A stretch of 64,000 nt of DNA from Arsukibacterium sp. UBA5043 (GTDB lineage: Bacteria; Pseudomonadota; Gammaproteobacteria; Enterobacterales; Alteromonadaceae): positions 62,001 through 126,000 of the forward strand of contig DIBV01000011.1 of NCBI GenBank assembly GCA_002415085.1, read 5' to 3'. Of this stretch, positions 20,400 through 56,255 are shown piece after piece. The translations under genes were made by a program, and so were the position numbers. Under the pieces are notes generated by a model. The model saw only the letters and a program-made list of their open reading frames with translations, ran no database searches and was not told where the DNA came from. Positions within the stretch are counted from its first letter, which is position 1. Every line of letters begins with the position of its first letter.

Positions 20400-20414
20400 T
20401 GAATAAATTATTCA
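20400..20414. promoter_or_regulatory. Perfect 15-bp palindrome, candidate autoregulatory operator
   Basis: TGAATAAATTATTCA is a perfect inverted repeat (7-bp arms, 1-bp centre), 75 bp upstream of the RpiR-type regulator gene. The core pattern GAAT-N5-ATTC recurs at 23964-23976, between the NlpC/P60 and TonB-receptor genes. Operators of RpiR-family proteins are typically short AT-rich palindromes in such positions. Binding is inferred. Confidence 0.45.
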
Positions 20415-20488
20415 ATATAAATTTACATATCGCATAATTATTTTTTTATAGCTGGCAACGGTGCCAGCTGAGCCTAAGACCATCGCCT

Positions 20489-21334
20489 ATGCTGAGTTTA
20501 CTGAAGATCCGTGGCATGCTTGATCAGATGTCGGTTATTGAGCGCAAGCTGGCCGAATTTATTCTGGATAATGCCCATATGCTGCGCGACTACTCATCGC
20601 AGCAACTGGCCGATGCGGTAGGGATCAGTCAATCCAGTGTGGTGAAGTTTTGTCAGAAACTGGGCTACAAAGGCTACCCTGATCTAAAGCTGGCAATAAA
20701 TGAAGCGGTGGTTACTGCCAGCACCATGAACCGGGATCAGGCAGATAAAAATAATGAAGATGGCAGTTTACTGGGCATTGGCGAGCAGCTGCAGTTTAGT
20801 CTGCAGCAACATTTGCGCACCTTACTAACCATTAATGATGAGAAAACCCTGTTGCAGGCGGCCCGTTTATTACAAAGTGCTGATAAAATATTGCTGGCCG
20901 GTTTTGCCAAGTCAGCCATAGTGGTAGCAGATATGCAATTTCGGTTGTTGCAGCTGGGTAAGCTGGCGCTGCATCATGCCGATCCGGCGTTAGCATTGCA
21001 GCTGGCCCGCAGTTTAACCGACACCAGTGTGTTGTTGCTGGTGTCCGATTCCGGCCAGAACAGTGACTTGCTGAAACTGGAGCATTATGCCAAAAGCCGC
21101 CAGCTGAAAATTATTTCACTGACCAGCTATAAAACCAATGCTCAAAGCCTGGCCGCCGATATTACCTTATTTACCCTCAGTGCTGAGGAAGACATTCGCT
21201 TAAACCCGCTGTTAACCCAGCTGGCGCAGCAGCATTTATGTCATATGCTGTATTTGCAGCTTTGCCACTGGCAGAACAATGATTTAGCGCTGACCGAAAG
21301 CACAGAGTTATTAGGCTTGCTGGAAAAGCCCTGA
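20489..21334 (+). CDS. MurR/RpiR-family transcriptional regulator with SIS domain
   Basis: This looks like a sugar-phosphate-responsive DNA-binding regulator. The 281 residues comprise an N-terminal RpiR-type helix-turn-helix (about 1-77: SSQQLADAVGISQSSVVKFCQKLGYKGYPDLK) and a C-terminal SIS domain (about 125-260: LLQSADKILLAGFAKSAIVVADMQF ... VLLLVSDSGQNSDLL) that binds phosphosugars in this family. MurR of E. coli senses MurNAc-6-phosphate. The neighbouring muropeptide genes make a cell-wall sugar phosphate the likely ligand, but that is inference. It is convergent with the epimerase gene. Confidence 0.88.
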   Translation: MLSLLKIRGMLDQMSVIERKLAEFILDNAHMLRDYSSQQLADAVGISQSSVVKFCQKLGYKGYPDLKLAINEAVVTASTMNRDQADKNNEDGSLLGIGEQLQFSLQQHLRTLLTINDEKTLLQAARLLQSADKILLAGFAKSAIVVADMQFRLLQLGKLALHHADPALALQLARSLTDTSVLLLVSDSGQNSDLLKLEHYAKSRQLKIISLTSYKTNAQSLAADITLFTLSAEEDIRLNPLLTQLAQQHLCHMLYLQLCHWQNNDLALTESTELLGLLEKP

Positions 21335-21383
21335 CTACTGAACTGGCATGGGTCAACGCCATTTTGTTCAGATAACAGTGTAA

Positions 21384-22478
21384 TCAGGGTAGCATTTTCA
21401 GGCCTTCAATCGCGGTGATACCTAAGCCCGGTGCATTGCCTATGGTGATGTCAGCATCATTAAAATTCACGCTGCTGCGCACCGGGTCAAAGGCACAAAG
21501 CGACGGACCATCTAAATCAATTTTGGTAATAACGTCGGATTTTGCCACCGCCACATGCACCGCGGCCGCGACACTGATACTGCCCTCCAGCATACAACCT
21601 ATCATGCACTGCATATCGTAGAACGAGCAAATATCAGCAATTTTGATGGCATTGGCGATACCGCCGGTTTTCATCAGTTTAATATTGATAATATCGGCGG
21701 CGCGCATTTTAATCAGTTCAATCACTTCTCGCGGACCAAAACTGCTCTCATCTGCCATTACCGGGGTATGTACCCGCTCAGTAATATATTTTAATCCTTC
21801 TAAATCGTAGGCTTTTACTGGTTGCTCTACCAATTCAAGCCGAACGCCGGCATCTTCCAGCTTGCGTAGTGCATATACCGCTTCTTTAGCGGTCCAGCCC
21901 TGATTGGCATCGAGTCGGATTAAAGCTTTGCCGGCCACAGCGGCATAAATGGCTTTAACCCGCTCTATATCTACCCCGATATCTTTACCTACTTTAACCT
22001 TAAGGGTTTCGAAACCACGGTCAATAGCACTTAACGAGTCAGCGACCATTTTGTCGATGTAATCGACACTGATGGTAATGTCAGTAGTTATTTTTGGTAC
22101 GCCACCGCCCAGTATTTTATATAAAGGTGCTTTATACAGCTGCGCGAATAAATCGTAAACCGCCATTTCTACCGCGGCTTTGGCGCTATAATTTTTCATT
22201 ATCGCACCCTGAATCAGCCGGATAATATGGTTTAAATCGGCAATCTGCTGCCCTATCAGCTTAGGTTTTAGTACGCTGTTAATGGCATCTATGATTGAGC
22301 CATGTATATCGCCGGTAATCACCGCAGTGGCCGGAGCTTCACCGTAGCCGGTATGGCCGGTATCGGTTTCTATCATGACCACCACATCTTCAATTTGCTG
22401 CACGGTGCGCAGCGCCGTTTTAAACGGTGTTTTCAAAGGTATGGTTAACATGCCCAGCCGGATATCGGTAATTTTCAT
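21384..22478 (-). CDS. L-Ala-D/L-Glu (dipeptide) epimerase, enolase superfamily
   Basis: The enzyme converts L-Ala-D-Glu released from murein peptides into L-Ala-L-Glu, which ordinary peptidases can split. The 364-residue sequence has the muconate-lactonizing-type barrel with catalytic lysines K160/K162 (LKVKVG) and K267 (IKLMKTGG), and metal ligands D190, E218 (VEQP) and D243 (MADES). The D321-x-D323 pair is present, which in the Bacillus enzyme holds the dipeptide's amino group, so dipeptide epimerase is favoured over other superfamily activities. It follows the NlpC/P60 gene by 11 bp with a good ribosome-binding site (GAGG), as one operon. Confidence 0.9.
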   Translation of the reverse strand: MKITDIRLGMLTIPLKTPFKTALRTVQQIEDVVVMIETDTGHTGYGEAPATAVITGDIHGSIIDAINSVLKPKLIGQQIADLNHIIRLIQGAIMKNYSAKAAVEMAVYDLFAQLYKAPLYKILGGGVPKITTDITISVDYIDKMVADSLSAIDRGFETLKVKVGKDIGVDIERVKAIYAAVAGKALIRLDANQGWTAKEAVYALRKLEDAGVRLELVEQPVKAYDLEGLKYITERVHTPVMADESSFGPREVIELIKMRAADIINIKLMKTGGIANAIKIADICSFYDMQCMIGCMLEGSISVAAAVHVAVAKSDVITKIDLDGPSLCAFDPVRSSVNFNDADITIGNAPGLGITAIEGLKMLP

Positions 22479-22489
22479 AGATGCCTCGG

Positions 22490-23905
22490 TTAACGCAACG
22501 ATTTAATCGCGTATATTTTATCCAGATAACTGCTGTCAGCCGTTAGCTGCAGCGGGGTTAACGGCGTTACCGCCACCCCATTTAAAATACCCTGGTATAA
22601 CGCAGGCTGAGTTGCAGCTGCACTACTATCCGCGTCAGAATTTTTGCGGTGAGTAAAATACGCCAGCTCATGTACTGAATGGATCACAAAAGGCTCGCCA
22701 TTGTCATCGCCTAAATACAACATCACGTGGCCCGGCCGGTAAATTAAATCCCCCACCTGCGCGTTATCAATCGCCGCCAGTTTGTCAGCATGGCTGCTTT
22801 GGCTGGAAAAGCGAATGTTCTGACCATAGCTACCTTCACCCTGCTGGCCGGAGTTTCTTGGCATCAGTAAGCCAAAGCTACGATAAATTTCAATAATGAA
22901 GCCTGTACAATCGCGACTGTCATAATCATGACCCCAGCCGTAGCGATCACCCAGAAACTTAAAAGCCTGTTGCAGAATATTAGCGGTGGTGTAAGGCAGA
23001 TATCCGACACTGACATCCTGCTGGCGGGCAATAAGGGCTGGCGTAAAACTAAGGCTGCCATCAAGGTTTCTGACTGGCAGTTGAACGATATGGCTGGCAT
23101 GCGGGTTCTGGCCATGTACGTTATGACCGGTTTCAGCTGTGCTTAGGAGTGGTAAGCGGATGCCCATATCCAGCAGCAACTGAGATATTGCAGGGTTCTC
23201 AGGGGTAAAACTGGTAAAAACCCGGGCGCCGGTCACTACCAGAAATGGCTGCAGCGTACCGTAATCTAATACCTGTTGCCGGGTACCCAGCGCAATATCC
23301 CGGGCCTGCACCCAACCAGTATAATGATAATTTTGAACCAACAGCCAGTTTTTGTCCTGGCTTTGGTGCAGCACCCCTACTGCTTCTCCAGGAAACAGCG
23401 CCGTTTCCTGAAAGCGGTCTAAATCCAGTGCCATGGTTTCGTTATGCACCCGATCTGCTGTGGGCAAACTGCGTAAATCGGTACGCTTTACTACCAGCGC
23501 AAATCTGACCGGATTGTCCGGCTGCACTGAATCGGTATTCAGGTTGTGCTGGTAGGCCCGCCATTGCTCAGCGCTAACCGCAGTGCCATCAGCATAAAAT
23601 CGTGGCTGGGCCGGGCTGGCGCTGGCTTGACGAATAATGGCATTTAAGGCGGCGGCATTTAGGCTAGCGGGCAGGCTGGCCAGCTCGGTCATTTCTGGCT
23701 GGCTGGCAAACGTATTTTTATTTCTGGCACTGATCTCGCTTTGCGTTAGCAACAGCCTGTTGGCATCGGCAACCTTTGTCAGCCAGTAGTCAGCTGTAAG
23801 ATGATCGGTTTTTAACATAGGAATATCTGACTCAGCATACGTGGTTCCTTGAAAACACCCGCTACCTAAATATAAAAGTACTATTAAACAATGGCGTAGC
23901 TTCAT
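22490..23905 (-). CDS. Secreted SH3-NlpC/P60 (C40) endopeptidase, probable muropeptide hydrolase
   Basis: The protein probably cleaves the D-Glu-mDAP bond of murein peptides in the periplasm, like YkfC. The 471 residues begin with a signal peptide (about 1-24, ending TTYA; a weak lipobox around C17 is possible). An N-terminal stabilising region follows, then SH3-like domains (about 135-300: KRTDLRSLPTADRV and YHYTGWVQARDIAL) and a C-terminal NlpC/P60 domain. That domain has C333 (RDCTGFIIE), H393 (RPGHVMLYLG) and H409 (VIHSVHE) as its catalytic triad. Its product, L-Ala-D-Glu, is the substrate of the epimerase gene 11 bp downstream. GAGGG precedes the ATG. Confidence 0.9.
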   Translation of the reverse strand: MKLRHCLIVLLYLGSGCFQGTTYAESDIPMLKTDHLTADYWLTKVADANRLLLTQSEISARNKNTFASQPEMTELASLPASLNAAALNAIIRQASASPAQPRFYADGTAVSAEQWRAYQHNLNTDSVQPDNPVRFALVVKRTDLRSLPTADRVHNETMALDLDRFQETALFPGEAVGVLHQSQDKNWLLVQNYHYTGWVQARDIALGTRQQVLDYGTLQPFLVVTGARVFTSFTPENPAISQLLLDMGIRLPLLSTAETGHNVHGQNPHASHIVQLPVRNLDGSLSFTPALIARQQDVSVGYLPYTTANILQQAFKFLGDRYGWGHDYDSRDCTGFIIEIYRSFGLLMPRNSGQQGEGSYGQNIRFSSQSSHADKLAAIDNAQVGDLIYRPGHVMLYLGDDNGEPFVIHSVHELAYFTHRKNSDADSSAAATQPALYQGILNGVAVTPLTPLQLTADSSYLDKIYAIKSLR

Positions 23906-32002: not shown

Positions 32003-32047
32003 AAAAAGGGGTCGGAGTGAATAATTTATTCACTCCGACCCCTTTTT
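32003..32047. repeat. 45-bp near-perfect palindrome, REP/MITE-like element and probable bidirectional terminator
   Basis: Arms at 32003-32024 and 32026-32047 are perfect 22-bp inverted repeats around one T, with outer AAAAAGGGGTCGGAG and inner TGAATAA. The A/T-tracts at both ends make it a workable terminator for the convergent dolP and DUF599 genes. The core is longer and more regular than an ordinary terminator. One arm recurs in degenerate form at 2241-2264, which points to a dispersed REP-type repeat. Confidence 0.75.
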
Positions 32048-40635: not shown

Positions 40636-41844
40636 TCACACCCTGAAAATCAGGCCCCGCCGATAACACCAGTGCATTAACAAATAAGATAGCCCCAGAA
40701 ACACCAGCGCAAAGGCCAGAGAGCCATTTAAATTACCCAATAACGGCTGAAAAAGCCGGCTGAATAGCCAACCTTTGAGCAAACCATCCCCTACCGGGAT
40801 CATGACCAAGGCCCGCGCTATTATCCCGGCCAGCATAAAGAACAAAATCGCATTGGCACCAAACACCACGAAAGGCGCGCTCCAGCGTCGCCAGCGTTTA
40901 ATATCACACAACCAGATACATGCCGAGAGCGCAATCGCGCAATAACCGCTGCTTAGCAGCACAAAACTAGGGGTCCATAAGCTTTTATTAATTGGCAGGG
41001 AAAAATGCCACAATTCGGCCAGCCATACCGCTATCACACCGGCCAGCAGTAAACCACGGACTTTGTGCGCCAGGCTGCGGTCGGTCTGAAGCCACTGCGC
41101 CAGCAACACCCCGCTTAAACAACTGGCTGTAGCAGGCAACGTTGACCAGATACCCTCAGGGTCAAAAGCAAACGGCGTCGCCGTCCGGTAATACAAATGG
41201 TTAACCCCCAGCACAGTATGATCAAGCCAGGCGGCAAAACTATTGCCAGATAACAGCAGGCCACTGAAAGTATTACCCTGGCTGTCCTGATAAGGCAGGT
41301 ACCACATGGCCAGCAGGTACACCAGACAAAGCCCGCCCAGCCAGGCCAGCCGGCCCCGGGTACCACAGTACAGCACAATCAGCATCGTAGCGAAGTACAC
41401 CAGGCCAATCCGCTGTAGCACGCCAAGCCAGCGCAGGTTCAGCAGTTTCTGTTCAATATAACTGTAAGCCGGATCAGCAAAATTAAAATAAAACAAAGCC
41501 AGAAACAGCCCCAGGCCAAACAGTTTAAGGCTTCGCGTGGCAGCATGGCGGATCAGCTGCGATTTGGGCAGGCTGTTTTTACCCTGATTGTGTTGCCGCT
41601 GCAGGCTGAACTGCAACGACATGCCAACAATCACGATAAAAAAGGGGAAAATCAGATCCGTCACCGTCCAGCCGTGCCACTGCGCATGGCGCAGCGGCCC
41701 GTACACATAATTCCAGCTGCCCGGGTTATTAACCAGAATCATCCCGGTAATGGTTAAGCCCCGCAGCGCATCCAGCGCCAGCAATCGTTGTGCAGGCACA
41801 CTGGCCAATATGGCATCGCAATGGGCTTTCAGCCAGCTTATCAT
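40636..41844 (-). CDS. NagX-like membrane acyltransferase (heparan-alpha-glucosaminide N-acetyltransferase family)
   Basis: An integral membrane protein of about ten to twelve segments, related to HGSNAT and to NagX of marine chitin/GlcNAc loci. It begins with the family motif RLLALDALRGLTITGMILVNNPGSW, followed by WHGWTVTDLIFPFFIVIVGMSL. NagX genes recur in N-acetylglucosamine regulons, though the biochemical role is not settled. Its ATG overlaps the stop of the secreted GH3 gene by one base (TGATG), so it is translated together with a cell-wall-sugar hydrolase. Confidence 0.85.
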   Translation of the reverse strand: MISWLKAHCDAILASVPAQRLLALDALRGLTITGMILVNNPGSWNYVYGPLRHAQWHGWTVTDLIFPFFIVIVGMSLQFSLQRQHNQGKNSLPKSQLIRHAATRSLKLFGLGLFLALFYFNFADPAYSYIEQKLLNLRWLGVLQRIGLVYFATMLIVLYCGTRGRLAWLGGLCLVYLLAMWYLPYQDSQGNTFSGLLLSGNSFAAWLDHTVLGVNHLYYRTATPFAFDPEGIWSTLPATASCLSGVLLAQWLQTDRSLAHKVRGLLLAGVIAVWLAELWHFSLPINKSLWTPSFVLLSSGYCAIALSACIWLCDIKRWRRWSAPFVVFGANAILFFMLAGIIARALVMIPVGDGLLKGWLFSRLFQPLLGNLNGSLAFALVFLGLSYLLMHWCYRRGLIFRV

Positions 41845-43790
41845 CAGGGGGTTTGGTGCTGTTTATCGGCTTCAGGCCGCTCAGCTGCGAGCGGTTTCAC
41901 GGTTACCGGTAACTGACCGGTTGGCTTAACCTGACCGAGCAATACCCGGGCCAGCGCGGTATACGTCGCCCCAGGATCACCAGCGGCAATGGCGCTATCA
42001 TCGCTGTTATAGGCATAGCTGGCCAGGCTGACATCGGCATACTGGCCATAACTGGCGGCATCATAAGGCGCGCGCAGGCTGATAAACACATGCGGGGTTT
42101 GTAACTGCGCCAGCTGGCGCAGCAACGCCAGAAAATCCTGTTGCTGGCGCTGATAACGGGCCGCTAATGGCCCAAGCGCACTGACATCGTCCATGCCGCC
42201 AATTTCTGCCAGCGACGGCATTGGCGTGATAAAGCCACTGATCACTACCTCGGCCTGTGCCAACAGAGCCGCTGCGCCGGTCAAATCGTCCTGCAGTAAA
42301 CTCAGGCTGGTAATGGTCAGCGGCTGCGGGCTTTGCTGCTGCAGCGCCAGGCTTAGCGCTGCAGCTTTATTAGCGTCTGGCATAATCAGCAATACTTGCT
42401 TATCCGTAAGCAATGGCATGCTGGCTTGTTCAGTCTTGCCCATCAGTGCAATACGGGTAATCGCTGCCTGAGCCAGTGCCAGTTCAGCCTGACGATGTGC
42501 CGGGCTGCCGAGCACATTATCTGCCTTTGCCAGCTGCTGCTTGGCAGAACCCTCTGGCAATAGCGGATACTGCTGTTTCAGCCTGATAATCCGCTGATAG
42601 GAAGCGCTCAGCTCGGCACGGTCGAGCTGGCCACTGAATACCGCTTGCTCCAGCGCATCCAGTAATGCGGCTAAGTTTGCCAGTTCCGCCGGGTTTTGCA
42701 GTTTCACCGGCATCAGCGCGATATCCGCGCCGGCGGCAAAGGTAGCAATAACGGCGTCATGCGGGCTGAAAAAATGGCTGATGCCGGCCATATCCAGCGC
42801 ATCGGTAACAATAAGGCCCTGGTAACCGAGCTGTTCTCGCAGTAAATCTTGCAGGATTGCCCGCGATAAGGTAGCCGGCTTCAGCATCTGCTGGCCATCT
42901 TTGGCAGTAAAGGTACTGCTGTCGAGCGCAGGGTACTGAATATGGGCGGTCATAATCATGCCCGGCTGTTGCTTGTTAATGATGTCAGTAAACGGCAGTA
43001 AATCGACCTGATCAATCTGCTCGCGGCTATGCTCTACTCTTGGCAGGCCTAAATGACTGTCGACATGGGTATCACCATGGCCCGGAAAATGTTTCAGCGC
43101 CGCAATAACCCCACGTTGCTGCATGGCTGCAGTCATGGCGCCGCCCAGCTCTGCCACGACAGCGGGGTTTTCGGCAAAAGCCCGGACATTAATCACCGGG
43201 TTATCCGGGTTAACATTGACATCAACGGTAGGTGCAAAGTTAACATTAATGCCCAGAGCCAGCAGCTCGTCGGCCATTACCGTGCCGGCCAGTTCGGCAA
43301 AATGATTACCATGTTCAGGATAGGTGGCGCCGATAGCCATATTGCCACTGAACGACGTGGCCAGTTGCCGCGGCAGGCGGGCGACCCGGCCGCCTTCCTG
43401 ATCAATACTGATAAATAACGGCTGTTTTAACGCAGATTGGGCTGCGGCTTGCTGCAACTGCCGGTTCAGACCAATAATCTGCTGTGTGTGCTGCAGGTTT
43501 TCAGCAAATAAAATTACCCCACCAATATCATACTGGCTAATCAGCTTGGCCAACTGTGGTGGCAGACTGGTTAGCGGCGTACGACATTTGCCAGCAGCCA
43601 CAGGCTCCGTGCAGTAATAGCGCAAATCGAGCATCAGCTTCTGGCCGAGCATCTGGCGTACCGTCGCTGCGGTTGCATGGTCAGCCTTTGGCTGCGCCTG
43701 GCTGCTCATTACCAGCACTCCTGATAGCACGCCCGATAACATCCATTTTCCCCACCGTAACCGTTGCCACCAATTTTGCTGATCTGACAC
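41844..43790 (-). CDS. nagZ: Secreted two-domain GH3 beta-N-acetylglucosaminidase (NagZ/YbbD type)
   Basis: The enzyme hydrolyses terminal GlcNAc from GlcNAc-MurNAc fragments, here outside the cytoplasm. A GTG start at 43790 with GGAG upstream gives a signal peptide ending SSQA. The GH3 barrel (about 40-380) carries the NagZ loop KHFPGHGDTHVDSH (233-246) with the D244-x-H246 dyad, the nucleophile D330 (IVTDALDM) and IDQEGGRVARLP. A second alpha/beta domain fills about 400-640. The cytosolic NagZ of Gram-negatives is single-domain and about 340 residues. This 648-residue secreted form resembles B. subtilis NagZ (YbbD). It is divergent from the symporter-kinase-murQ-namZ operon. Confidence 0.9.
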   Translation of the reverse strand: MSDQQNWWQRLRWGKWMLSGVLSGVLVMSSQAQPKADHATAATVRQMLGQKLMLDLRYYCTEPVAAGKCRTPLTSLPPQLAKLISQYDIGGVILFAENLQHTQQIIGLNRQLQQAAAQSALKQPLFISIDQEGGRVARLPRQLATSFSGNMAIGATYPEHGNHFAELAGTVMADELLALGINVNFAPTVDVNVNPDNPVINVRAFAENPAVVAELGGAMTAAMQQRGVIAALKHFPGHGDTHVDSHLGLPRVEHSREQIDQVDLLPFTDIINKQQPGMIMTAHIQYPALDSSTFTAKDGQQMLKPATLSRAILQDLLREQLGYQGLIVTDALDMAGISHFFSPHDAVIATFAAGADIALMPVKLQNPAELANLAALLDALEQAVFSGQLDRAELSASYQRIIRLKQQYPLLPEGSAKQQLAKADNVLGSPAHRQAELALAQAAITRIALMGKTEQASMPLLTDKQVLLIMPDANKAAALSLALQQQSPQPLTITSLSLLQDDLTGAAALLAQAEVVISGFITPMPSLAEIGGMDDVSALGPLAARYQRQQQDFLALLRQLAQLQTPHVFISLRAPYDAASYGQYADVSLASYAYNSDDSAIAAGDPGATYTALARVLLGQVKPTGQLPVTVKPLAAERPEADKQHQTP

Positions 43791-43922
43791 ACTGTTTACT
43801 CCGCTTATGTTAAGGTAATACTTGTCCAGCTATGGGCTTGCAGTAAAACAAAAAAACAACCTGCCCGCCAGTAGCGGCAGGTAGCAAAATTAAAAATAAA
43901 ATCAGGCTTTGGGAATTCTGCC

Positions 43923-45503
43923 ATGCAACTGACGTTGTTAGACTGGACGGTATTTTTTGGGTATTTTCTGCTACTGGCGACACTGGCGGTCTGGGTAAAC
44001 CGGCGCCGGGCCGATACCAGCAGTGACTACTTTCTCGGTGGTAACAATATGCCGCCTTTTCTGGTAGCAATTTCGGTGTTGGCGACCTCGCAATCTGCGG
44101 CAACCTTTCTGGGCGGCCCCGACATGGGTTTTCGGGGTAATTTAACCTATCTGGCCACCAACATCGGCGCCATTATTGCCAGTTTACTGGTAATAAAATG
44201 GCTGATCCCTCGTTATTATCAGCTAAAAGTCACCACTGTATACGAACTGCTGGAAAGCCGCTTTAATGCCACCGCTAAAAACCATGCCGGTAAAATGTAT
44301 TTATTTGGCCGGGTTTTCGCCAGTGGCGCCCGGCTGTACATGGCGGCACTGGCGGTTGCCATGCTGTTATTCAGTAATATCGATGCCAGCAGTGTAATCA
44401 TCGCCATCATCCTGCTGGCCATGGTAGGTCTGGCTTGTACCATGGCCGGTGGTATTCGCTCGGTTATTTATACTGATGCGATGCAATGCGCGGTTTATGT
44501 CACAGCGGCACTGGTGGTGCTCGGCTATCTGTATAGCAGCCTGCAACTGGATCTGGCCAGCTTATATTCTGTACTCAGTGAGCCACTGGCCGACGGCACC
44601 TCTAAATTATTACTATTTGATTTCAGACCCGATTTTAGCAGCAGCGGCGTGTTTACGGTCTGGTCGGCGCTAACTGGTTTTGTGCTGTTAAATATTGCCG
44701 CCTTTGGTCTGGATCAGGATATGACTCAGCGGGTGCTAACCTGTAAAACGGCTGCCGGTGGCGCCAAAGCCCTGCTATCCTCGGCACTGCTGGTGATCCC
44801 GGTAATGCTGGTATTTATTGTGATTGGTTTACTGCTGTATATTTATTATCAGCGGCCCGATGTCTTCGCCAATAGCACCAGTTACAACGGCAGCTTTAGC
44901 GGTGAACAAATTACCGTCTTTATGTATTATGTATTAAACGAGATGCCATCCGGTTTGCGTGGCCTGGTAGTGGTGGGCGTGATTGCCGCAGCGTTATCAA
45001 CTATCACCTCCGGTCTAAATTCGATGGCATCGGTACTGGTGGCGGATATTTATAAGCCCTGGCGCCAGCAGCGCCAGGCTGCAATCACAGAGCGGCATTA
45101 TGTGCGCGCAGGTCAGTGGGCCATGTTATTAACCGCAGTAACCTTGTCGGCGATGGCCATTTTGTGTTTTTACTGGCAGCAGTATTCTGCTATGCCGTTA
45201 CTGGCGTTTGCGTTGAGTGTAATGGTATTTTCATACAGTGGGTTGCTGGGAGTATTTTTTACCGCGCTGTTCAGCAACAGAGGCAACAGCATAAGTGTTA
45301 CCGCGGCCCTACTGGCCGGGTTCACGGTTACCCTGTTAATGCAGCCGTACCTTTTACGGTTGATCAGTCCGACGCTGGCAGCCTGGGATCTGGGCTTTAC
45401 CTGGCAATTGTGCCTGGGCACCCTGGTTGCCTGGCTGGTTTGCCTGAGTGGTGCGCCCCGTCCCACGGTGTCAACAACACTAGCTAATAATCCGGAGCAT
45501 TAA
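43923..45503 (+). CDS. Sodium:solute symporter (SSS family), candidate MurNAc/amino-sugar transporter
   Basis: An inner-membrane Na+-coupled symporter with 13-14 hydrophobic segments over 526 residues. SSS signatures include the first helix and loop (SSDYFLGGNNMPPFLVAISVLATSQSAATFLGGPDMGF), TMAGGIRSVIYTDAMQCAVYV and AALSTITSGLNSMASVLVADIYKP, the conserved sodium-site serine region. It is the first gene of an operon with a sugar kinase, MurQ and a NamZ homologue. Hence uptake of MurNAc, GlcNAc or the disaccharide is inferred, replacing the PTS MurP of enterics. The Tannerella murTKQ operon has a comparable non-PTS transporter, as I recall it. Confidence 0.85.
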   Translation: MQLTLLDWTVFFGYFLLLATLAVWVNRRRADTSSDYFLGGNNMPPFLVAISVLATSQSAATFLGGPDMGFRGNLTYLATNIGAIIASLLVIKWLIPRYYQLKVTTVYELLESRFNATAKNHAGKMYLFGRVFASGARLYMAALAVAMLLFSNIDASSVIIAIILLAMVGLACTMAGGIRSVIYTDAMQCAVYVTAALVVLGYLYSSLQLDLASLYSVLSEPLADGTSKLLLFDFRPDFSSSGVFTVWSALTGFVLLNIAAFGLDQDMTQRVLTCKTAAGGAKALLSSALLVIPVMLVFIVIGLLLYIYYQRPDVFANSTSYNGSFSGEQITVFMYYVLNEMPSGLRGLVVVGVIAAALSTITSGLNSMASVLVADIYKPWRQQRQAAITERHYVRAGQWAMLLTAVTLSAMAILCFYWQQYSAMPLLAFALSVMVFSYSGLLGVFFTALFSNRGNSISVTAALLAGFTVTLLMQPYLLRLISPTLAAWDLGFTWQLCLGTLVAWLVCLSGAPRPTVSTTLANNPEH

Positions 45504-46373
45504 ATGTATTTACTGGCGGTAGATGGTGGCGGCAGTAAAACCCTGGCCAGACTGCAGCATTCACTCAGTGACCAGCAGTGGCAGGCTGCCGGCGGCCCTG
45601 CCCAGTTGTCCAATAACCTGGAGCTGGCCATCAGCACGGTACGCCAGCTGAGTTTACAATTATGCCAGCAGGCCGGTATTGGCCTGCATCAGGTCATGGC
45701 CTGTATTGGTCTGGCCGGTGCCGGTAATCCGCAATTGCACAGCGCCTTTTGCCAGCAATTGCAGCTTGATTTCGCCGCCTGGCAACTGACTACCGACGCC
45801 CGCACCTCCTTGTATGGCGCCAACAACGGCCAGCCGGTGGTGATGGTGGCACTGGGTACTGGCTCGGTAGCGATGCGGCTGGACCAGAATGGCAGCGAGC
45901 AGCAGACCGGCGGCTGGGGTTTTAATATCGGCGATGAAGGCGGTGGTGCCTGGCTGGGTAAACTGGCCGTGCGCCAGCTGCTCTGGCAACTGGACAGTGA
46001 CGAGGGCCTGACCAGCCCGCTCACCCGGGCCCTTAGCCAGCATTGTGGCGATAATGTCAGTACGGTGCTGCCCTGGTTAAAGCAGGCCCTTGCTACAGAT
46101 TTTGCCGCGCTGGCGCCGCTGGTGTTCAGCCACCAAAGCTGCCCGCTGGCCCAACAGATCCTACGCCAGCAAGCGGCTGCCATTAGTAAACTTATTCATT
46201 GTTGCCGTGGCGAACGCCAGTTACCGGTAGTAATGCTCGGCGGCCTGGCCGCCAGCAGTCAGTCGCTGCTAAGCGCAGATATCGGCAAGCTGTTACAAGC
46301 TCCTCGCGGTGATGCACTGGACGGCGGCCTTATTCTGGCAGCCAGGCAACTGGCCCGGATCAGTCCGGTCTGA
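45504..46373 (+). CDS. BadF/BadG-type ATPase, N-acetylmuramate/N-acetylglucosamine kinase (MurK-like)
   Basis: This is an actin-fold sugar kinase predicted to phosphorylate imported amino sugar with ATP. The 289 residues show the phosphate 1 motif LLAVDGGGSKTLARL, a second phosphate motif VMVALGTGSVAMRL, GGWGFNIGDEGGGAWLG and an adenosine-motif VVMLGGLAASS. Its ATG directly abuts the symporter stop codon, and murQ follows. Clostridial and Tannerella MurK belong to this family and act on MurNAc and GlcNAc. Position before murQ, which needs MurNAc-6-phosphate, favours MurNAc kinase; the distinction from a pure GlcNAc kinase cannot be made by eye. Confidence 0.85.
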   Translation: MYLLAVDGGGSKTLARLQHSLSDQQWQAAGGPAQLSNNLELAISTVRQLSLQLCQQAGIGLHQVMACIGLAGAGNPQLHSAFCQQLQLDFAAWQLTTDARTSLYGANNGQPVVMVALGTGSVAMRLDQNGSEQQTGGWGFNIGDEGGGAWLGKLAVRQLLWQLDSDEGLTSPLTRALSQHCGDNVSTVLPWLKQALATDFAALAPLVFSHQSCPLAQQILRQQAAAISKLIHCCRGERQLPVVMLGGLAASSQSLLSADIGKLLQAPRGDALDGGLILAARQLARISPV

Positions 46374-46406
46374 TTTATAATCCTGAATTTTCAAAGTGAG
46401 TGTCTG

Positions 46407-47327
46407 ATGAGTCAATCTGAATTACTGCAACAGCTGGCCGGCATGAGTACCGAGGCACGTAACCCCGCTTCCGCCGAGCTGGATAAGCTGAACAGCCTGG
46501 CCATCGTCAGCCTGATTAATCAGGCCGATCAGACTATTGCTTCCGCCATTACCCCCTGTTTACCGCAGGTCGCCCGGGCAGTTGATGCCATAGTGCAGGC
46601 ATTTTCCGTTGGCGGCCGCTTAATCTATGTTGGTGCCGGCACCAGTGGCCGGCTGGGTATTCTGGACGCCGCAGAATGCCCGCCAACCTTCAGCGTACCG
46701 GCTAACCAGGTAATCGGCCTGATTGCCGGTGGCAGCAAAGCTATTCAGCAGGCTGTAGAAGGCGCAGAAGACAGCCCACAGCTGGCAGTGGAAGAACTGG
46801 CTGCCATTAACTTTGGTCCGGATGATGTACTGGTGGGCATTGCCGCCAGTGGTCGCACACCCTATGTGCTGGGTGCACTGGCTTATGGCCGCAAGCTGGG
46901 TGCCACTTCCGTTGCCATCAGCTGTAATGCCAGCGGCCCCATTCTGGCCGCAGCAGATATTGCCATTTGTGCCGAAGTAGGCCCGGAAGTGCTAACCGGC
47001 TCTACCCGGATGAAAGCCGGCACCGCCCAGAAAATGCTGCTGAATATGCTAAGCACCGCCGCCATGGTGCGCAGCGGCAAGGTGTATCAGAACCTGATGG
47101 TTGATTTACATGCCAGCAATCAGAAATTGGAAACCCGCGCCGTACGGATTGTGATGCAGGCCACTGACTGTGACAGCGCAACGGCCAACGCTGCGTTGCT
47201 GCAGGCCGGGATGAGTGCCAAGCTGGCTATTTTACTGATCCTGACCGGCCAGGATTTAGCCAGCTGCCAGCAGGCCCTGGCCGATAACAACGGTTTTGTT
47301 AGTAAAGCGCTGGAGACAGCAAAATGA
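46407..47327 (+). CDS. murQ: N-acetylmuramic acid 6-phosphate etherase MurQ
   Basis: MurQ cleaves the D-lactyl ether of MurNAc-6-phosphate to give GlcNAc-6-phosphate and D-lactate in the cytosol. The 306-residue SIS-fold protein has IYVGAGTSGRLGILDAAECPPTF with the catalytic E90, and GAEDS with E121, matching the two glutamates known in the E. coli enzyme. The internal VGIAASGRTPYVLGAL and GSTRMKAGTAQKMLLNMLSTAAM motifs are typical. It sits in the symporter-kinase-murQ-namZ operon, and the 4-bp ATGA overlap with namZ indicates translational coupling. Confidence 0.97.
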   Translation: MSQSELLQQLAGMSTEARNPASAELDKLNSLAIVSLINQADQTIASAITPCLPQVARAVDAIVQAFSVGGRLIYVGAGTSGRLGILDAAECPPTFSVPANQVIGLIAGGSKAIQQAVEGAEDSPQLAVEELAAINFGPDDVLVGIAASGRTPYVLGALAYGRKLGATSVAISCNASGPILAAADIAICAEVGPEVLTGSTRMKAGTAQKMLLNMLSTAAMVRSGKVYQNLMVDLHASNQKLETRAVRIVMQATDCDSATANAALLQAGMSAKLAILLILTGQDLASCQQALADNNGFVSKALETAK

Positions 47328-48529
47328 GGCGTCTGCTAACTGCACTGGCAATGCTGTGGCTGGCCGGGTGTCAGCCGAATCCGGCTGTGCTCTCTGCCGC
47401 TGAACCGTCGACTGCCGCAGCCCCCGAAACACCGGCCAGGATCACCCCCGGCGCAGAGCAACTGGCAGCCTATCTGCCGTTGTTGCAGGGCAAAAGAGTG
47501 GGCCTGCTGGTAAATCAGACCTCACGTATCGGTAGCGAGCATCTGGTAGACGTGCTGCTGGCCAATAACGTGAACATAGTCAGCATTTTTGCGCCCGAGC
47601 ATGGCTTTCGGGGCGATCATGATGCCGGGGCAAAAGTCAGCTCTGGCATCGACAGCAAAACCGGTATTCCGCTGCTATCGCTGTATGGCGCCAGCAAGGC
47701 GCCGAGCGCAGCACAAATGCAGGCGCTGGATCTGGTTATTTTCGATATTCAGGATGTTGGTGTGCGTTATTACACTTATATCAGCTCAATGCATTACCTG
47801 ATGCAGGCCGCTGCTGAGCATAATGTCGCCATGCTGGTACTCGACCGCCCCAACCCGAATGGCCGCTATCTGGATGGCCCGGTGCTGGATTTAGCCTTTC
47901 AGTCTTTTGTTGGTATGCACCCGATACCGTTACTACACGGTATGACCGTTGGTGAGCTGGCAATGATGATTAAAGGCGAGCGCTGGATTAACCAGGCTGA
48001 ACAGCTGCAGCTGACCGTGATCCCGGTGGCGAATTATCAACGCGATATAGCCTACAGTCTGCCGGTACCGCCCAGCCCGAATTTGCCCAATGACCAGGCC
48101 ATTGCCCTGTATCCGTCACTTGGGTTTTTTGAAGCCACCCCGCTAAGTGTTGGTCGTGGCACCGCTATGCCGTTTCAGGTGCTGGGCTATGATAAGTTCA
48201 GCATCGGCGATTTCAGCTTTACCCCGGTAGCCACTCCTGGCGCGGCGATGAACCCGCCATTAAAAGACACACCCAGCCAAGGCCAGGACCTAAGCCAGGT
48301 GAATGCCGGCGGCTTGGATTTAAGTTATTTAATTACCTGGCACAACTTATTTGCGGCCAATAATGTGACATTTTTCAGCTCGCCCGGCTTTATGGATAAA
48401 CTGGCTGGCGGTGATTCCTTACGCCAGCAAATTGAGCAGGGGCTGACCGAGCAGCAAATCCGCGCCAGCTGGCAAAGCGCACTTCACGAGTTCGCGGCCA
48501 AACGCCAGCCTTATTTGCTCTACCCCTGA
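47324..48529 (+). CDS. namZ: NamZ-type exo-beta-N-acetylmuramidase (DUF1343), lipoprotein
   Basis: DUF1343 founding member NamZ (B. subtilis YbbC) removes MurNAc from the non-reducing ends of glycan chains. This 401-residue protein has a lipoprotein signal ending WLAGC (C16), so it should be membrane-anchored in the periplasm. Family motifs are VGLLVNQTSRIG, SIFAPEHGFRGDHDAG, PLLSLYGASKAPS, DIQDVGVRYYTYISSMHYLM, LDRPNPNG and LPNDQAIALYPSLGFFEATPLSVGRGTAMPFQVLG. It is coupled to murQ by an ATGA overlap and lies opposite the secreted NagZ gene. The MurNAc it frees is the expected substrate of the symporter and kinase. Confidence 0.9.
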   Translation: MRRLLTALAMLWLAGCQPNPAVLSAAEPSTAAAPETPARITPGAEQLAAYLPLLQGKRVGLLVNQTSRIGSEHLVDVLLANNVNIVSIFAPEHGFRGDHDAGAKVSSGIDSKTGIPLLSLYGASKAPSAAQMQALDLVIFDIQDVGVRYYTYISSMHYLMQAAAEHNVAMLVLDRPNPNGRYLDGPVLDLAFQSFVGMHPIPLLHGMTVGELAMMIKGERWINQAEQLQLTVIPVANYQRDIAYSLPVPPSPNLPNDQAIALYPSLGFFEATPLSVGRGTAMPFQVLGYDKFSIGDFSFTPVATPGAAMNPPLKDTPSQGQDLSQVNAGGLDLSYLITWHNLFAANNVTFFSSPGFMDKLAGGDSLRQQIEQGLTEQQIRASWQSALHEFAAKRQPYLLYP

Positions 48530-49404: not shown

Positions 49405-49583
49405 AACAAGCTCCGTGTCGAAAAATAGTAGCAATAGATAGTAGTATCGGAAAGCGACGGTATCGCGGCCATTTTCGCGCCGCCAACTTTACCCAGCCTG
49501 AACTTAAAACAGACATCCGGCCCGGATGAACTACACTGAAAGCCGGCCTGTATAAAAACCGGTATGCATAAAAAGGAGTGAAG

Positions 49584-50181: not shown

Positions 50182-51609
50182 TTAATTGCCGCCAAACGGA
50201 TCGATCAGGCTGCCATCCGCCAGCCTGATCAGCCGGCCATTAATCACCGCAAGCTGCACCTTGTTATCTTTACTGAGTAAAAAGGTCGTGCTGGCATGCC
50301 GCTGCGGCCATGGTCCGTTTACACCGCGCGGATTTATTGCCACCGGCAGGCCGGAGTTATTGCTGAGCAGGCCTGCATCGCCGCTGAAATGGCTGTAGCC
50401 GTCAGCCAGCAGCTTAAGGTAATTATCGGTAGTTAACTGTAGCGGTTTAACCAGCGGATACGCCTTACCGGCTTGGTACGCCATACCACTGGCATCCAGG
50501 CTGTGATATGCGCCATAAATACGGGCGTCACCTATTTCATCCAGGCCCGCACTACCGCGGCCATTGCCACCGGCAGTAAAGGCTAAATCGACCCGCGCCA
50601 GCACACCTTTGCCATCAACCTTGGGCAAATTGATATTGCTGATAATTAAATCTTTCATACCGCCACTGTTGTTCATCGGTATGCTGTTATAACCGCTTAA
50701 ATCGTAATCACGGTAGCTGCCACTGCTAATCAATTCCAGCCAGCGTAAATACAACTGCACATTTAGCTGACGGGCCAGCTGGCGAAACGGATCATTGTAA
50801 TTACCCCCTGCTTCCACCAGCACGGTACTGATCCCCATGCCGGAAAACGTATCACCGAACGAGCGCATTGAATACTCATCATCATAGCGGCCCAGCTGCT
50901 CAGGTATCGCCTTATCCAGCAGTGGCTTTACCGCGCTTATCAGCTGCATTGCCGCATGGCGGCTGGGGTTAATCTGCCGGGCCTCGTTATAAGCCGGTGC
51001 CAGTAAAGAGATGGTGGCGGGCTTTTTATTATCCCCGGCGCCGTGGTAGCGATTCTGATCATGCAGGTTAAAGCCATAATGTGGTTTGATTTTTTTGGCT
51101 GCCTGCATCAGTAACTGGCCTTCCGGGGTCTGCAGCGCCAGCGCATCACGGTTAACGTCAATGCCCAGCGCGTTATAGCGGCTGTTGCGCTCAGCGCCAT
51201 CCGGGTTAAGCATCGGGATCAGATACAAACTAATCTCATCCAGCCAGGCCGGGCCGCCTTTACCGGTTGCCGCATGTTGTTGCTGCTGGGCATCAATAAT
51301 GGCCAGCAAATCAAAAATGGCGGCTGTGGCGGTTGGCTCATCACCATGCATTTGTGACCAGGCCAATACTTTGCGCTCACCGTGGCCAATTTTCAGCAGA
51401 TAAACCGGCCGCTGCTCCACCGAGCGGCCAAGCTCGGTCACCTCCAGCCAGTTTTGTTGCTGATAATAACTAATTAGCGGCGCGATATCGCTATGAGTTA
51501 TCTGTGCTTTGGCCAGGCCCGGCGTGGTAAATTTGCTGTAATCCGCTGCGCTGGCCAGGCCTGATAACACAGCAGTTAATGCTAACCATAATGATACGTG
51601 CTTTAACAT
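50182..51609 (-). CDS. Secreted M14-family zinc carboxypeptidase
   Basis: An exported metallocarboxypeptidase. The start at 51609 is chosen for the ribosome-binding site GAGGA and a clean signal peptide ending GLASA, giving 475 residues. Zinc ligands are HGDE in SQMHGDEPTATA and the histidine of GFNLHDQNRY. The substrate-binding stretch is IPMLNPDGAERNSRYNALGIDVNRDA and the catalytic glutamate lies in STVLVEAGG. A C-terminal beta-rich region follows (about 330-475). M14 members include murein tripeptide and gamma-D-Glu-mDAP peptidases, so a role in stem-peptide breakdown would fit the neighbourhood, but general peptide digestion is equally possible. Confidence 0.88.
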   Translation of the reverse strand: MLKHVSLWLALTAVLSGLASAADYSKFTTPGLAKAQITHSDIAPLISYYQQQNWLEVTELGRSVEQRPVYLLKIGHGERKVLAWSQMHGDEPTATAAIFDLLAIIDAQQQQHAATGKGGPAWLDEISLYLIPMLNPDGAERNSRYNALGIDVNRDALALQTPEGQLLMQAAKKIKPHYGFNLHDQNRYHGAGDNKKPATISLLAPAYNEARQINPSRHAAMQLISAVKPLLDKAIPEQLGRYDDEYSMRSFGDTFSGMGISTVLVEAGGNYNDPFRQLARQLNVQLYLRWLELISSGSYRDYDLSGYNSIPMNNSGGMKDLIISNINLPKVDGKGVLARVDLAFTAGGNGRGSAGLDEIGDARIYGAYHSLDASGMAYQAGKAYPLVKPLQLTTDNYLKLLADGYSHFSGDAGLLSNNSGLPVAINPRGVNGPWPQRHASTTFLLSKDNKVQLAVINGRLIRLADGSLIDPFGGN

Positions 51610-51694
51610 GGCATCCTCTTTTTTCACAAAGTGACTGGGGCCAAATGTTAACCATAACATAGCCGGCCGTACAGGGCATATTTAGCGACAGTAA

Positions 51695-54620: not shown

Positions 54621-54863
54621 AACCGACACTCCCTGTTATTGATGCTGCTATTCACCGGCTTACTGCTTACCGAACCACGAAGGCAAACTTCAGGTTAATA
54701 AAAATTGATAATCAGATAATTTAGATTCGACTTATTTTAAAGTTAGCTAAGTAAAGCAGAAAACGGCCAAAACGCCAGTAGCCGGCTTGCCCGCTGGCAT
54801 GCTTATCTGTATAAAAGTAACTGTATAAATTAGTTGTATAAAAATAATAAAAAGGAGCCTAAG

Positions 54864-56255
54864 GTGGCTGACTGGTTAACCCTGCTTCCGGCGCTTGTCG
54901 CCATTGCCGTGGTACTGTGGCGCAAAGAAGTGATTCTGGCCTTGATGTTATCACTATGTACCTCAGAGCTGCTGATTTTTCTGCAAAATGGCCAGAGCTT
55001 TGGCGCTGGTTTACTGCTGGATGGCAGTATTCAGACTCTGGAGCGGATTATTGCCGTTACCGGCGATAGTGACAACGCCCGCATTTTAATGTTTTCGCTC
55101 TTAGTTGGCGGCTTACTGGCCTATATGCGCTACTCTGGCGGGGTGTCGGCCACGGTGGCGATGCTGGTTAATAAAGGTATTGCCCGCAATGGCCGCCAGG
55201 CCGGCTTACTGACTTTTTTCATCAGTAGTGTCACCTTTATTGAATCGAATTTAAGCTCGCTGACTGCCGGTATTAGCTCGCGTGGCCTGTTTGATAAATT
55301 TAAAATGAGCCGGGCCCGGCTGGCCTATATTATCGACAGCACCAGTGCGCCGATTTGCATTATTATTTTACTCAATGGCTGGGGCGCTTATATTCTGGGG
55401 CTGCTTAGCACCTATGATTTACCAGAGAGCCCGGTGGCTATTTTAATTGGCACTATCCCGCTTAATTTCTATGCCCTGATCACCTTAGTGGTAGTGCTGT
55501 ACACCATTATCAGTGGCAAGGTATACGGGCCGATGCGTACCTCAGAGCAGCAGCTGCATACCTTATCGCACCACAGCGAAATTGAGACTGCACCCAGCCA
55601 TCCATCTTATATGTTAGTGCCACTGGTAACCCTGGTCGGTGCCATGCTGGGCTTTATGCTGTTAACCGGCAATGGCCAGCTGGTGCAGGGCTCAGGTTCT
55701 AAGTCGGTGTTATATGCCACCGCACTGGCCTGCGTGGTGGTGTATGCCATGATGCTGCTAAGCCGCCGTTTTAAACATCAGCAACTGGTGGATATCGGCT
55801 TTAAGGGCATTAGTGAACTCCTGCCGCTGGTAACCATCGTGTTGTTATCGTTGTCGCTCGGGTCCAGCTTAAAACTGCTGGGCACCGGTACCTTTATTGC
55901 CAGCATAGTTGATCAGAACCTGCCGCAGGTGCTTATTCCGGCGCTGCTGTTTTTAGCCGGTGCATTAATCTCCTTTACCACCGGTACCAGCTGGGGCACC
56001 TTTGCCATTCTTATTCCGATTGGTATGCCAATGGTCAGCCTGCTCGGCCTACCGCCACAACTTATTCTGGCGGCGATATTAAGCGGTGGGGTGTTTGGCG
56101 ATCACTGCTCGCCTATTTCCGACAGCACCGCAGTAAGCTCGGTTGCTGCTGGCTGTGATTTACTGGAACATGTGAAAACCCAGCTGCCCTATGCGCTGGT
56201 GTGTGGTGCTATCGCCTTACTCAGCTTTTTGGTTGCCGGTGTACTAATGATCTAA
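54864..56255 (+). CDS. NhaC-family Na+/H+ antiporter-like transporter
   Basis: A polytopic inner-membrane transporter of the NhaC/ArsB-like ion transporter group. I start at the GTG at 54864 because AAGGAG lies just before it, giving 463 residues and about eleven hydrophobic segments. Family motifs are FFISSVTFIESNLSSLTAGISSRGLFDKFKMSRARLAYIIDSTSAPIC, SFTTGTSWGTFAILIPIGMPM and GGVFGDHCSPISDSTAVSSVAAGCDLLEHVKTQLPYAL. Members can exchange Na+ for H+ or organic anions and amino acids. It is 11 bp upstream of a D-Ala-D-Ala dipeptidase gene, so uptake or efflux of a dipeptide product such as D-alanine is conceivable. Confidence 0.87.
   Translation: MADWLTLLPALVAIAVVLWRKEVILALMLSLCTSELLIFLQNGQSFGAGLLLDGSIQTLERIIAVTGDSDNARILMFSLLVGGLLAYMRYSGGVSATVAMLVNKGIARNGRQAGLLTFFISSVTFIESNLSSLTAGISSRGLFDKFKMSRARLAYIIDSTSAPICIIILLNGWGAYILGLLSTYDLPESPVAILIGTIPLNFYALITLVVVLYTIISGKVYGPMRTSEQQLHTLSHHSEIETAPSHPSYMLVPLVTLVGAMLGFMLLTGNGQLVQGSGSKSVLYATALACVVVYAMMLLSRRFKHQQLVDIGFKGISELLPLVTIVLLSLSLGSSLKLLGTGTFIASIVDQNLPQVLIPALLFLAGALISFTTGTSWGTFAILIPIGMPMVSLLGLPPQLILAAILSGGVFGDHCSPISDSTAVSSVAAGCDLLEHVKTQLPYALVCGAIALLSFLVAGVLMI

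Follow-up and report, generated by a model that had tools for sequence, protein, structure and literature searches.

A conserved divergent gene cluster in Arsukibacterium and its relatives is predicted to salvage peptidoglycan sugars from the periplasm inward

Gene content and conservation of the cluster

The window analyzed here is a 64,000-nucleotide stretch of contig DIBV01000011.1 of Arsukibacterium sp. UBA5043 (genome of 3.88 Mb, G000; window on C2). Six open reading frames (ORFs) between positions 40636 and 48529 form two diverging operons, nagZ-nagX reading leftward and genes for a symporter, a kinase, MurQ, and NamZ reading rightward, with a 132-bp gap between them (Table 1). The genes are tightly packed; nagZ and nagX overlap by 1 base, murQ and namZ overlap by 4 bases, and the kinase gene starts at the base after the symporter stop codon. 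A first-pass annotation made from the sequence alone had described overlapping or abutting genes for a secreted two-domain GH3 NagZ, a NamZ lipoprotein, an SSS symporter, a BadF-type kinase, and MurQ, and all six ORFs were found with the boundaries it had drawn and with matches to the expected families (PF00474, PF01869, and TIGR00274 for the last three). We put the probability at about 0.77 that the locus encodes a periplasm-first route for salvage of the peptidoglycan sugars N-acetylglucosamine (GlcNAc) and N-acetylmuramic acid (MurNAc).

The comparison genus (Rheinheimera/Arsukibacterium) comprised 25 genomes, including that of the window. NagX, NagZ, the kinase, MurQ, and NamZ are encoded in the loci of all 24 relatives and the symporter in 23 of them (25/25 and 24/25 with the window counted). 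Gene order is the same in 24/24 relatives, save that G021 (locus L040) has no symporter match. Because order is maintained throughout, the association is more than chance adjacency, and an accidental grouping of the genes was rejected; the conservation check proposed with the first-pass annotation thus came out in its favor. A gene for an NlpE-META lipoprotein lies just 3′ of namZ (window positions 48559-49434), and 19 of the 24 relatives carry a homologue at their own locus.

Beyond the genus, a single genome out of 16 representing other families of the order had NamZ, and a sample of the class contained NamZ in 25 of 369 genomes. Among the 24 class-sample loci other than the window's own, several of which end at contig ends, NagZ, NamZ, and MurQ occur together in one (G387, same family, other genus); another (L109) has a weak NagZ-like match. 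Named NamZ loci were drawn from 80 of at least 588 stretches, and many of these also end at contig ends. Among the matches listed, MurQ lies within 10 kb of NamZ in 10 of 12 gammaproteobacterial loci, the remaining two (L172 and L188) being truncated by the contig at one or both ends, and within that distance in 1 of 68 other loci (Flavobacterium phragmitis), many of the 68 being cut by contig ends. The arrangements vary: MurQ-NamZ in Colwellia; NagZ facing a single kinase-MurQ ORF (642 and 636 amino acids [aa]) followed by NamZ in Psychrosphaera; RpiR facing SSS-kinase-MurQ, with NamZ-NagX nearby, in Microbulbifer; and SusCD-NamZ and MurQ-SSS-NagZ-AnmK-NagX in Flavobacterium. An alanine racemase gene is divergent from MurQ-NamZ in Colwellia marinimaniae (L174:7695-8777).

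These partners bear on whether a locus for chitin or oxidized chitin has been misread as one for muramic acid. The ong cluster of Pseudoalteromonas, also a marine gammaproteobacterium, follows a similar logic, with RpiR, an SSS transporter, a beta-hexosaminidase, and a sugar kinase (PMC9537276). MurQ and NamZ, which are named for muramic acid substrates, are the most widely recurring partners here, and neither appears in the ong cluster as the accessible part of that source describes it. No D-aminoacylase, deaminase, or RidA family was found among the six ORFs and four neighbors scanned. A chitin or ong-type reading was rejected on the lack of these deacylase and deaminase families and on the recurrence of MurQ with NamZ, and we regard it as very improbable.

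Table 1. Features of the window, with positions in window coordinates
Feature	Position	Strand	Basis
NagX-like transmembrane N-acetyltransferase (HGSNAT family)	40636..41844	-	PF07786 35.2 bits, cut-off 22
Secreted two-domain GH3 beta-N-acetylglucosaminidase (B. subtilis-type NagZ)	41844..43790	-	GTG start; PF00933 293.8 bits
Divergent promoter region	43791..43922	.	132-bp gap separating both operons
SSS-family sodium symporter, candidate importer of MurNAc (or anhydroMurNAc)	43923..45503	+	PF00474 101.9 bits
BadF/BadG-type sugar kinase, probable MurNAc (possibly GlcNAc) kinase	45504..46373	+	PF01869 76.5 bits
MurQ, N-acetylmuramic acid 6-phosphate etherase	46407..47327	+	TIGR00274 404.9 bits, cut-off 302
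NamZ exo-beta-N-acetylmuramidase (predicted), lipoprotein signal	47324..48529	+	PF07075 262.7 bits, PF20732 89.6 bits
M14 metallopeptidase, possible partner (murein peptide)	50182..51660	-	PF00246
NhaC-like transporter, possible partner	54834..56255	+	85% identical to operator-linked NhaC-like gene of G012
RpiR-type operator TGAATAAATTATTCA	20400..20414	.	Upstream of the window's RpiR gene
MurR/RpiR-family regulator RpiRa	20489..21334	+	PF01418 and SIS
L-Ala-D/L-Glu epimerase-like enzyme (murein peptide catabolism)	21384..22478	-	PF13378/PF02746
SH3-NlpC/P60 peptidase (murein peptide)	22490..23905	-	PF12913 and PF00877

Predicted enzymes and the position of NagZ

NamZ is predicted to be an exo-muramidase. 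Both of its domains score above the curated cut-offs, and it aligns with structure 4jja, listed as a "hypothetical protein," with an E value of 2.1e-115. The PEHG and DRPNPNG motifs are invariant in 10 of 10 aligned sequences. Selected positions of NamZ, MurQ, the kinase, NagX, and NagZ were compared across the 25 genus copies, and those of NamZ are identical in all of them. The window protein has an LAGC lipobox, in keeping with the lipoprotein first proposed; the other copies carry a lipobox or a hydrophobic signal-like segment, as judged by a simple scan rather than a signal-peptide program. The phylogeny of NamZ (113 rows) was built by a quick method without bootstrap, and long branches and uneven composition were flagged. 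It nests a 21-row marine gammaproteobacterial set (SH-like approximate likelihood ratio test [SH-aLRT], 95), which also contains one alphaproteobacterial metagenome-assembled genome and two other class genomes (L106 and L120), within a 91-row, mostly Bacteroidota set (SH-aLRT, 98). An 18-row set of other gammaproteobacterial NamZ sequences stands apart. The nesting, the one part of the tree relied on here, suggests transfer from Bacteroidota.

Residues 43 to 632 of NagZ align to YbbD/NagZ (3bmx) with an E value of 3.5e-104; the C-terminal GH3 domain itself is weak (24.3 bits; cut-off, 31). A KHFPGHGDTxVDSH loop, in which x is variable, and Asp330, which we take to be the catalytic loop and nucleophile, are present in all 25 genus copies at the positions checked, as is a hydrophobic N-terminal segment, again by simple scan. 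The secreted two-domain enzyme of the first-pass annotation is thus borne out. Canonical cytosolic NagZ was defined as a protein of about 340 aa without a signal that scores above 207 bits with model NF003740, and a match of canonical strength was set at 350 bits or more. The window enzyme has 648 aa and falls just short of the cut-off, at 203.6 and 205.1 bits. Across the genus, the best match in each genome is the secreted enzyme of the cluster (198 to 215 bits, in frames of 630 to 740 aa). Ten of the 25 copies score just over the cut-off (207 to 215 bits), which counts against placing the whole group below it, yet these too are of the long, signal-bearing type. An NF003740 search gave a match of this strength in 14 of the 16 other-family genomes (the exceptions were G026 and G035) but in none of the 25 genomes of the genus. 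An extra NagZ in the window's own genome was rejected, as the only other GH3 protein detected there has 866 aa and scores 36.6 bits against the NagZ model; outside the cluster in the relatives, the next best match is a 555-aa GH3 protein in G013 (154.5 bits), and the rest are below 50 bits. A Flavobacterium NagZ-like protein (L223:14716-17715) has an extra beta-lactamase-family domain after its GH3 domains.

AnmK and AmpG are each encoded in 25/25 genus genomes. Exactly one MurQ scores above the TIGR00274 cut-off in each genome, always at the cluster (25/25); among the 16 other-family genomes, 6 have such a MurQ and 14 have AnmK. GlcNAc trimming in the genus would be either periplasmic or performed in the cytosol by an enzyme that the NF003740 model misses. 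Because canonical-strength NagZ was not found in the genus though AmpG and AnmK are retained, the secreted NagZ may also serve recycling of the cell's own wall.

The kinase is the sole PF01869-family match in its own genome at an E value of 0.001. It has the BadF fold and the catalytic Asp (Asp98) of MurK-type MurNAc kinases and scores below the cut-off of the NagK SO_3507 equivalog NF046058 (124 bits; cut-off, 370). Small residues at MurK positions S133-P134-L135 and T94 have been put forward as marks of a MurNAc kinase (PMC10465942). The pocket here, T97, G136-G137-W138, and F140, with G-G-W mapped by way of NagK G145 as the counterpart of MurK P134, fits MurNAc on that basis and fits GlcNAc equally well; G-G-W also occurs in 1zc6, 2ch6, and 8zo3. 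The kinase and MurQ positions checked are identical in the 25 genus copies. Two Psychrosphaera genomes encode a natural fusion of kinase and MurQ in one ORF (L176:7954-9882 and L177:6655-8565), its kinase part 34% identical to the window kinase. The kinase probably acts on MurNAc and possibly on GlcNAc too.

The NagX-like protein belongs to the family without scoring as a NagX equivalog (NF046061, 167 bits; cut-off, 480). By hand count, its His53 aligns to His297 of HGSNAT, which is catalytic (PMC9007349), and His53, Trp56, and Gly58 are identical in the 25 genus copies. The first-pass annotation had assigned NagX no function. Because the catalytic His is conserved, NagX may re-acetylate glucosamine-type sugars.

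An operator shared with peptidoglycan-linked genes

The genus divides into sub-clade B, 18 of the 25 genomes, marked by a divergent AnmK (about 296 to 320 bits), and sub-clade A, the other 7 (about 474 to 486 bits). The gap between nagZ and the symporter gene contains an operator, TGAATAMTTTAY, in sub-clade B, where 13 of 18 promoters match exactly and 17 of 18 within one mismatch. Mononucleotide shuffles gave expectations of 0.012 and 0.22, respectively, for these 18 promoters, which are related and are not 18 independent events. All 4 of the AnmK loci examined in sub-clade B likewise have the operator ahead of AnmK, with an RpiR gene alongside. The two AnmK types within the genus are only 33% identical (L165:9322-10524 and L161:9337-10419), and that of sub-clade B is 52% identical to the Flavobacterium AnmK of the MurQ-SSS-NagZ cluster; these identities suggest that AnmK was replaced by transfer in sub-clade B. 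Between RpiR and AnmK, G019 and G007 encode a TonB-receptor-like ORF (L165:6323-9103, named by eye), a candidate outer-membrane muropeptide receptor, with no match at that place in G016 or G012.

Seven genomes were scanned for exact matches to the operator, with the reversed pattern as a control. The scan returned 60 matches against 13 for the control, and 18 of the 60 precede peptidoglycan-linked genes when the RpiR/epimerase and M14/NhaC sites are counted as linked (G012, 6/8; G018, 4/7; G019, 3/12; G024, 2/8; G000, 1/12; G001, 1/4; G008, 1/9); one of these, at AnmK in G018, was judged from coordinates alone. Three matches, in G000, G001, and G008, precede a PxpA/YcsF gene, and five fall in a repeat, GGGTCDGAGTGAATAATTTATTCACTCHGACCC. 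Among the remaining 34, the 29 that were examined sit within ORFs or close to unrelated genes, those of G019 including sites near a response regulator and a cardiolipin synthase. G012 and G018 are the best cases and not the average, the other genomes being weaker. The six linked sites of G012 precede the cluster, RpiR/AnmK, RpiR/L-Ala-D/L-Glu epimerase, a D-2-hydroxyacid dehydrogenase, a pair of genes for an M14 peptidase and a NhaC-like protein, and an LD-carboxypeptidase. G018 shares the sites at the dehydrogenase and at M14/NhaC, whereas the one at the LD-carboxypeptidase was observed in G012 alone. G012 encodes a homologue with 52% identity to the M14 metallopeptidase of the window, and G018 encodes a similar protein; in both, the gene is divergent from the NhaC-like gene with the operator between. 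The operator-linked dehydrogenase is 50% identical to a 990-aa FAD/Fe-S enzyme encoded directly after MurQ-NamZ in Colwellia; its best NCBIfam match, glycolate oxidase GlcD, is far below cut-off. D-Lactate is the by-product of MurQ (PMC5061867), and we infer that the dehydrogenase may oxidize it.

Operator sites in the window are found only before the RpiR gene at 20489 and in the repeat at 32018. The first belongs to a segment (20400-23905) adjoining mraZ/rsmH, in which a MurR/RpiR-type regulator with a perfect operator is accompanied by epimerase-like and SH3-NlpC/P60 genes. The operator is directly upstream of this regulator, RpiRa, in 6 of the 7 scanned genomes; G019 has a 258-aa ORF between. 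RpiRa shares 36% identity with the regulator encoded next to AnmK in sub-clade B; its best NCBIfam match is PRK11557 (163 bits; cut-off, 355), and the regulators score below the cut-off of the MurR model PRK15482. The best match of the epimerase-like enzyme is NF041118 (249 bits; cut-off, 500). The palindromic repeat, which contains the operator core, was seen in sub-clade A genomes (window, about 32018-32032; L254, L261, L267, and L274) and may be a terminator-like repeat or a decoy. The operator-like sites before PxpA/YcsF, a 5-oxoprolinase subunit, in G000, G001, and G008 (L253, L268, and L270) likewise belong to sub-clade A.

These sites help to decide whether the locus is purely for feeding on exogenous peptidoglycan, with no part in recycling of the cell's own wall. 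The nesting of NamZ among mostly Bacteroidota sequences, suggestive of acquisition, and the SusCD genes beside NamZ in Flavobacterium would suit such a role. The operator, however, is shared with AnmK and, in G012, with the LD-carboxypeptidase, and with AnmK and AmpG in 25/25 genomes, the AnmK product would have no other known MurQ than the one at the locus. An exclusively exogenous role is thus rather unlikely. Since the AnmK product needs MurQ and the sole over-cut-off MurQ sits in the locus, the locus probably serves own-wall recycling besides scavenging. The first-pass annotation had called it a scavenging locus; exolytic salvage remains the favored reading, and scavenging is probably not its only function, given the sole MurQ above cut-off and the best NagZ-like match.

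Importer, proposed route, and relation to known systems

The closest solved chain to the symporter is the sialic acid symporter SiaT (5nv9; E value, 4.3e-37), which transports another acidic N-acetylated sugar. Ser or Thr is kept wherever SiaT has its Na2 and Na3 ligands, with Ser359 and Thr360 at SiaT positions 342/343 of the Na2 site, in favor of a sodium-driven sugar importer, and Ser60 and Thr63 of the SiaT carboxylate site are kept as well. The TIGR00813 score, 169.9 bits against a cut-off of 184, counts against the SSS assignment. A phosphotransferase system (PTS) hidden elsewhere was rejected: PTS_EIIC gave 0 matches in a search of the window's own genome, and the control matched Escherichia coli and B. 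subtilis, in agreement with the first-pass statement that no MurP-type PTS is present. In G021, the interval between kinase and NagZ genes (L040:6590-6896) lacks the symporter, yet the promoter gap and an exact operator match remain.

The first-pass annotation had MurNAc enter by Na+-driven import. An SSS protein with both SiaT sodium sites agrees with this, and the symporter is the likelier of two candidate importers, the other being NagX: NagX has been called a distant relative of Tannerella TfMurT (PMC9007349), and TfMurT has been placed in the sodium symporter superfamily (PMC5790795). NagX could be the importer, as a MurT-type permease, with the symporter carrying GlcNAc or another product; the reported kinship with TfMurT and the retention of NagX in G021 point that way. 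Yet the acetyltransferase catalytic His is present in 25/25 copies, PMC9007349 itself makes the case for NagX as an acetyltransferase, the kinase-MurQ unit contains the symporter and not NagX both here and in Microbulbifer, and PMC5790795 puts TfMurT with the symporters. Import by NagX is accordingly improbable, and we favor the symporter.

The symporter might instead bring in anhydroMurNAc, the sugar that remains once secreted NagZ has trimmed GlcNAc-anhydroMurNAc, for use by AnmK, with the BadF kinase handling GlcNAc. AnmK is present in 25/25 genomes and canonical-strength NagZ in 0/25, sub-clade B AnmK and the cluster have a common operator, and F. phragmitis (L223) has MurQ-SSS-NagZ-AnmK-NagX with no BadF-kinase match in the 21 kb examined. 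Against this, the MurNAc that NamZ would release calls for a kinase acting on MurNAc; the kinase-MurQ fusions link the kinase to MurNAc-6-phosphate; and the L223 symporter is only 25% identical. We consider anhydroMurNAc as the imported sugar somewhat unlikely.

From the domains, catalytic-site residues, and export signals of these proteins, their conservation and co-occurrence, the fusion in a relative, and the sub-clade B operator, we infer the substrates, the direction of transport, the order of the periplasmic reactions, and the role of NagX as follows. Outside the inner membrane, glycan fragments would lose terminal GlcNAc to NagZ and terminal MurNAc to NamZ. MurNAc would enter through the Na+ symporter or, with lower probability, through the NagX-like protein, the BadF kinase would convert it to MurNAc-6-phosphate, and MurQ would convert this to GlcNAc-6-phosphate and D-lactate. 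NagX would probably re-acetylate glucosamine-type residues for entry to the same route. Because the only MurQ above cut-off and the best NagZ-like match of each genus genome lie in the locus, the route would also supply the MurQ step for AnmK-derived MurNAc-6-phosphate and would probably replace the GlcNAc trimming that relatives perform in the cytosol. The full exolytic pathway first proposed remains the best reading on conservation, the fusion, and, in sub-clade B, the operator, with the symporter as its candidate importer.

Several findings weigh against this route. G021 has the other five genes and no symporter match in the locus. The operator is present in the cluster promoter of 0 of 7 sub-clade A genomes, the window included, and G024 of sub-clade B has no exact match near AnmK. 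The GGWGF pattern of the kinase resembles those of GlcNAc kinases and of the solved MurNAc/GlcNAc kinase 8zo3 and so does not discriminate, and the equivalent of MurK T94 varies, being T in the window, S in Microbulbifer, and N in the two fusions of Psychrosphaera. The symporter lacks an Arg at the position of SiaT Arg135, although one lies 4 residues further on in every symporter checked. The reported distant relationship of NagX to TfMurT (PMC9007349) adds to these points.

Every enzyme family here is known, and partial equivalents of the set exist in B. subtilis and Tannerella; the combination appears to be new. We take ybbC of B. subtilis to be namZ. It belongs there to the cluster murQ-murR-murP-amiE-nagZ-ybbC (PMC5061867). 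Both species cluster a two-domain NagZ, NamZ, and MurQ, and sub-clade B shares a MurR/RpiR-type operator. The PTS transporter MurP of B. subtilis is replaced here by the SSS symporter and BadF kinase, AmiE has no counterpart family among the cluster proteins and neighbors scanned, NagX is added, the host is Gram negative, and no regulator gene lies beside the window's cluster.

The murTKQ operon of Tannerella forsythia (PMC5790795, PMC7670621, PMC5388701) likewise joins a non-PTS transporter, a BadF-type kinase, and MurQ, and AmpG is present in both. The Tannerella analogy of the first-pass annotation holds to that extent and is not straightforward, as the TfMurT papers conflict. It differs in that NagZ and NamZ genes are in the same divergon here and that the genus genomes have AnmK, of which Tannerella has no predicted copy. 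E. coli combines murQP with cytosolic AmpG-NagZ-AmpD-AnmK recycling (PMC5061867). MurQ, AnmK, and AmpG are in common with E. coli, whereas the window's genome gave no match to PTS EIIC and none of canonical strength to cytosolic NagZ, and its NagZ-type enzyme is secreted. The kinase bears no more than a remote resemblance (E value, about 0.003) to solved MurNAc kinases 8oqw/8ow9, presumably the Tannerella enzymes, which also sets this cluster apart from that of Tannerella. Among the open-licence literature matches listed (titles and abstract openings), none concerned this gene set in gammaproteobacteria, as the first-pass annotation had supposed, or a MurNAc kinase-MurQ fusion, and prior mention elsewhere is possible; the same matches held no SSS MurNAc importer besides Tannerella MurT.

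A wider proposal is tentative, and we think it possible with the odds somewhat against it: that the whole genus swapped cytosolic NagZ for a transferred, Bacillus/Bacteroidota-like periplasmic exolytic route, with an RpiR regulon in part of the genus that also covers AnmK, murein peptidases, and D-lactate oxidation, and that the symporter represents an importer of MurNAc (or anhydroMurNAc) of a new class. The Gram-negative recycling model, AmpG followed by cytosolic NagZ, underlies beta-lactamase induction and ideas for NagZ inhibitors. If the periplasm-first route is correct, a genus that has AmpG and AnmK would keep its sole NagZ-like enzyme outside the inner membrane, and the order of steps in that model would not be fixed. 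The locus also offers a candidate non-PTS MurNAc importer and natural kinase-MurQ fusions that would be easy to assay, and it suggests that marine bacteria use peptidoglycan as a carbon source under regulation.

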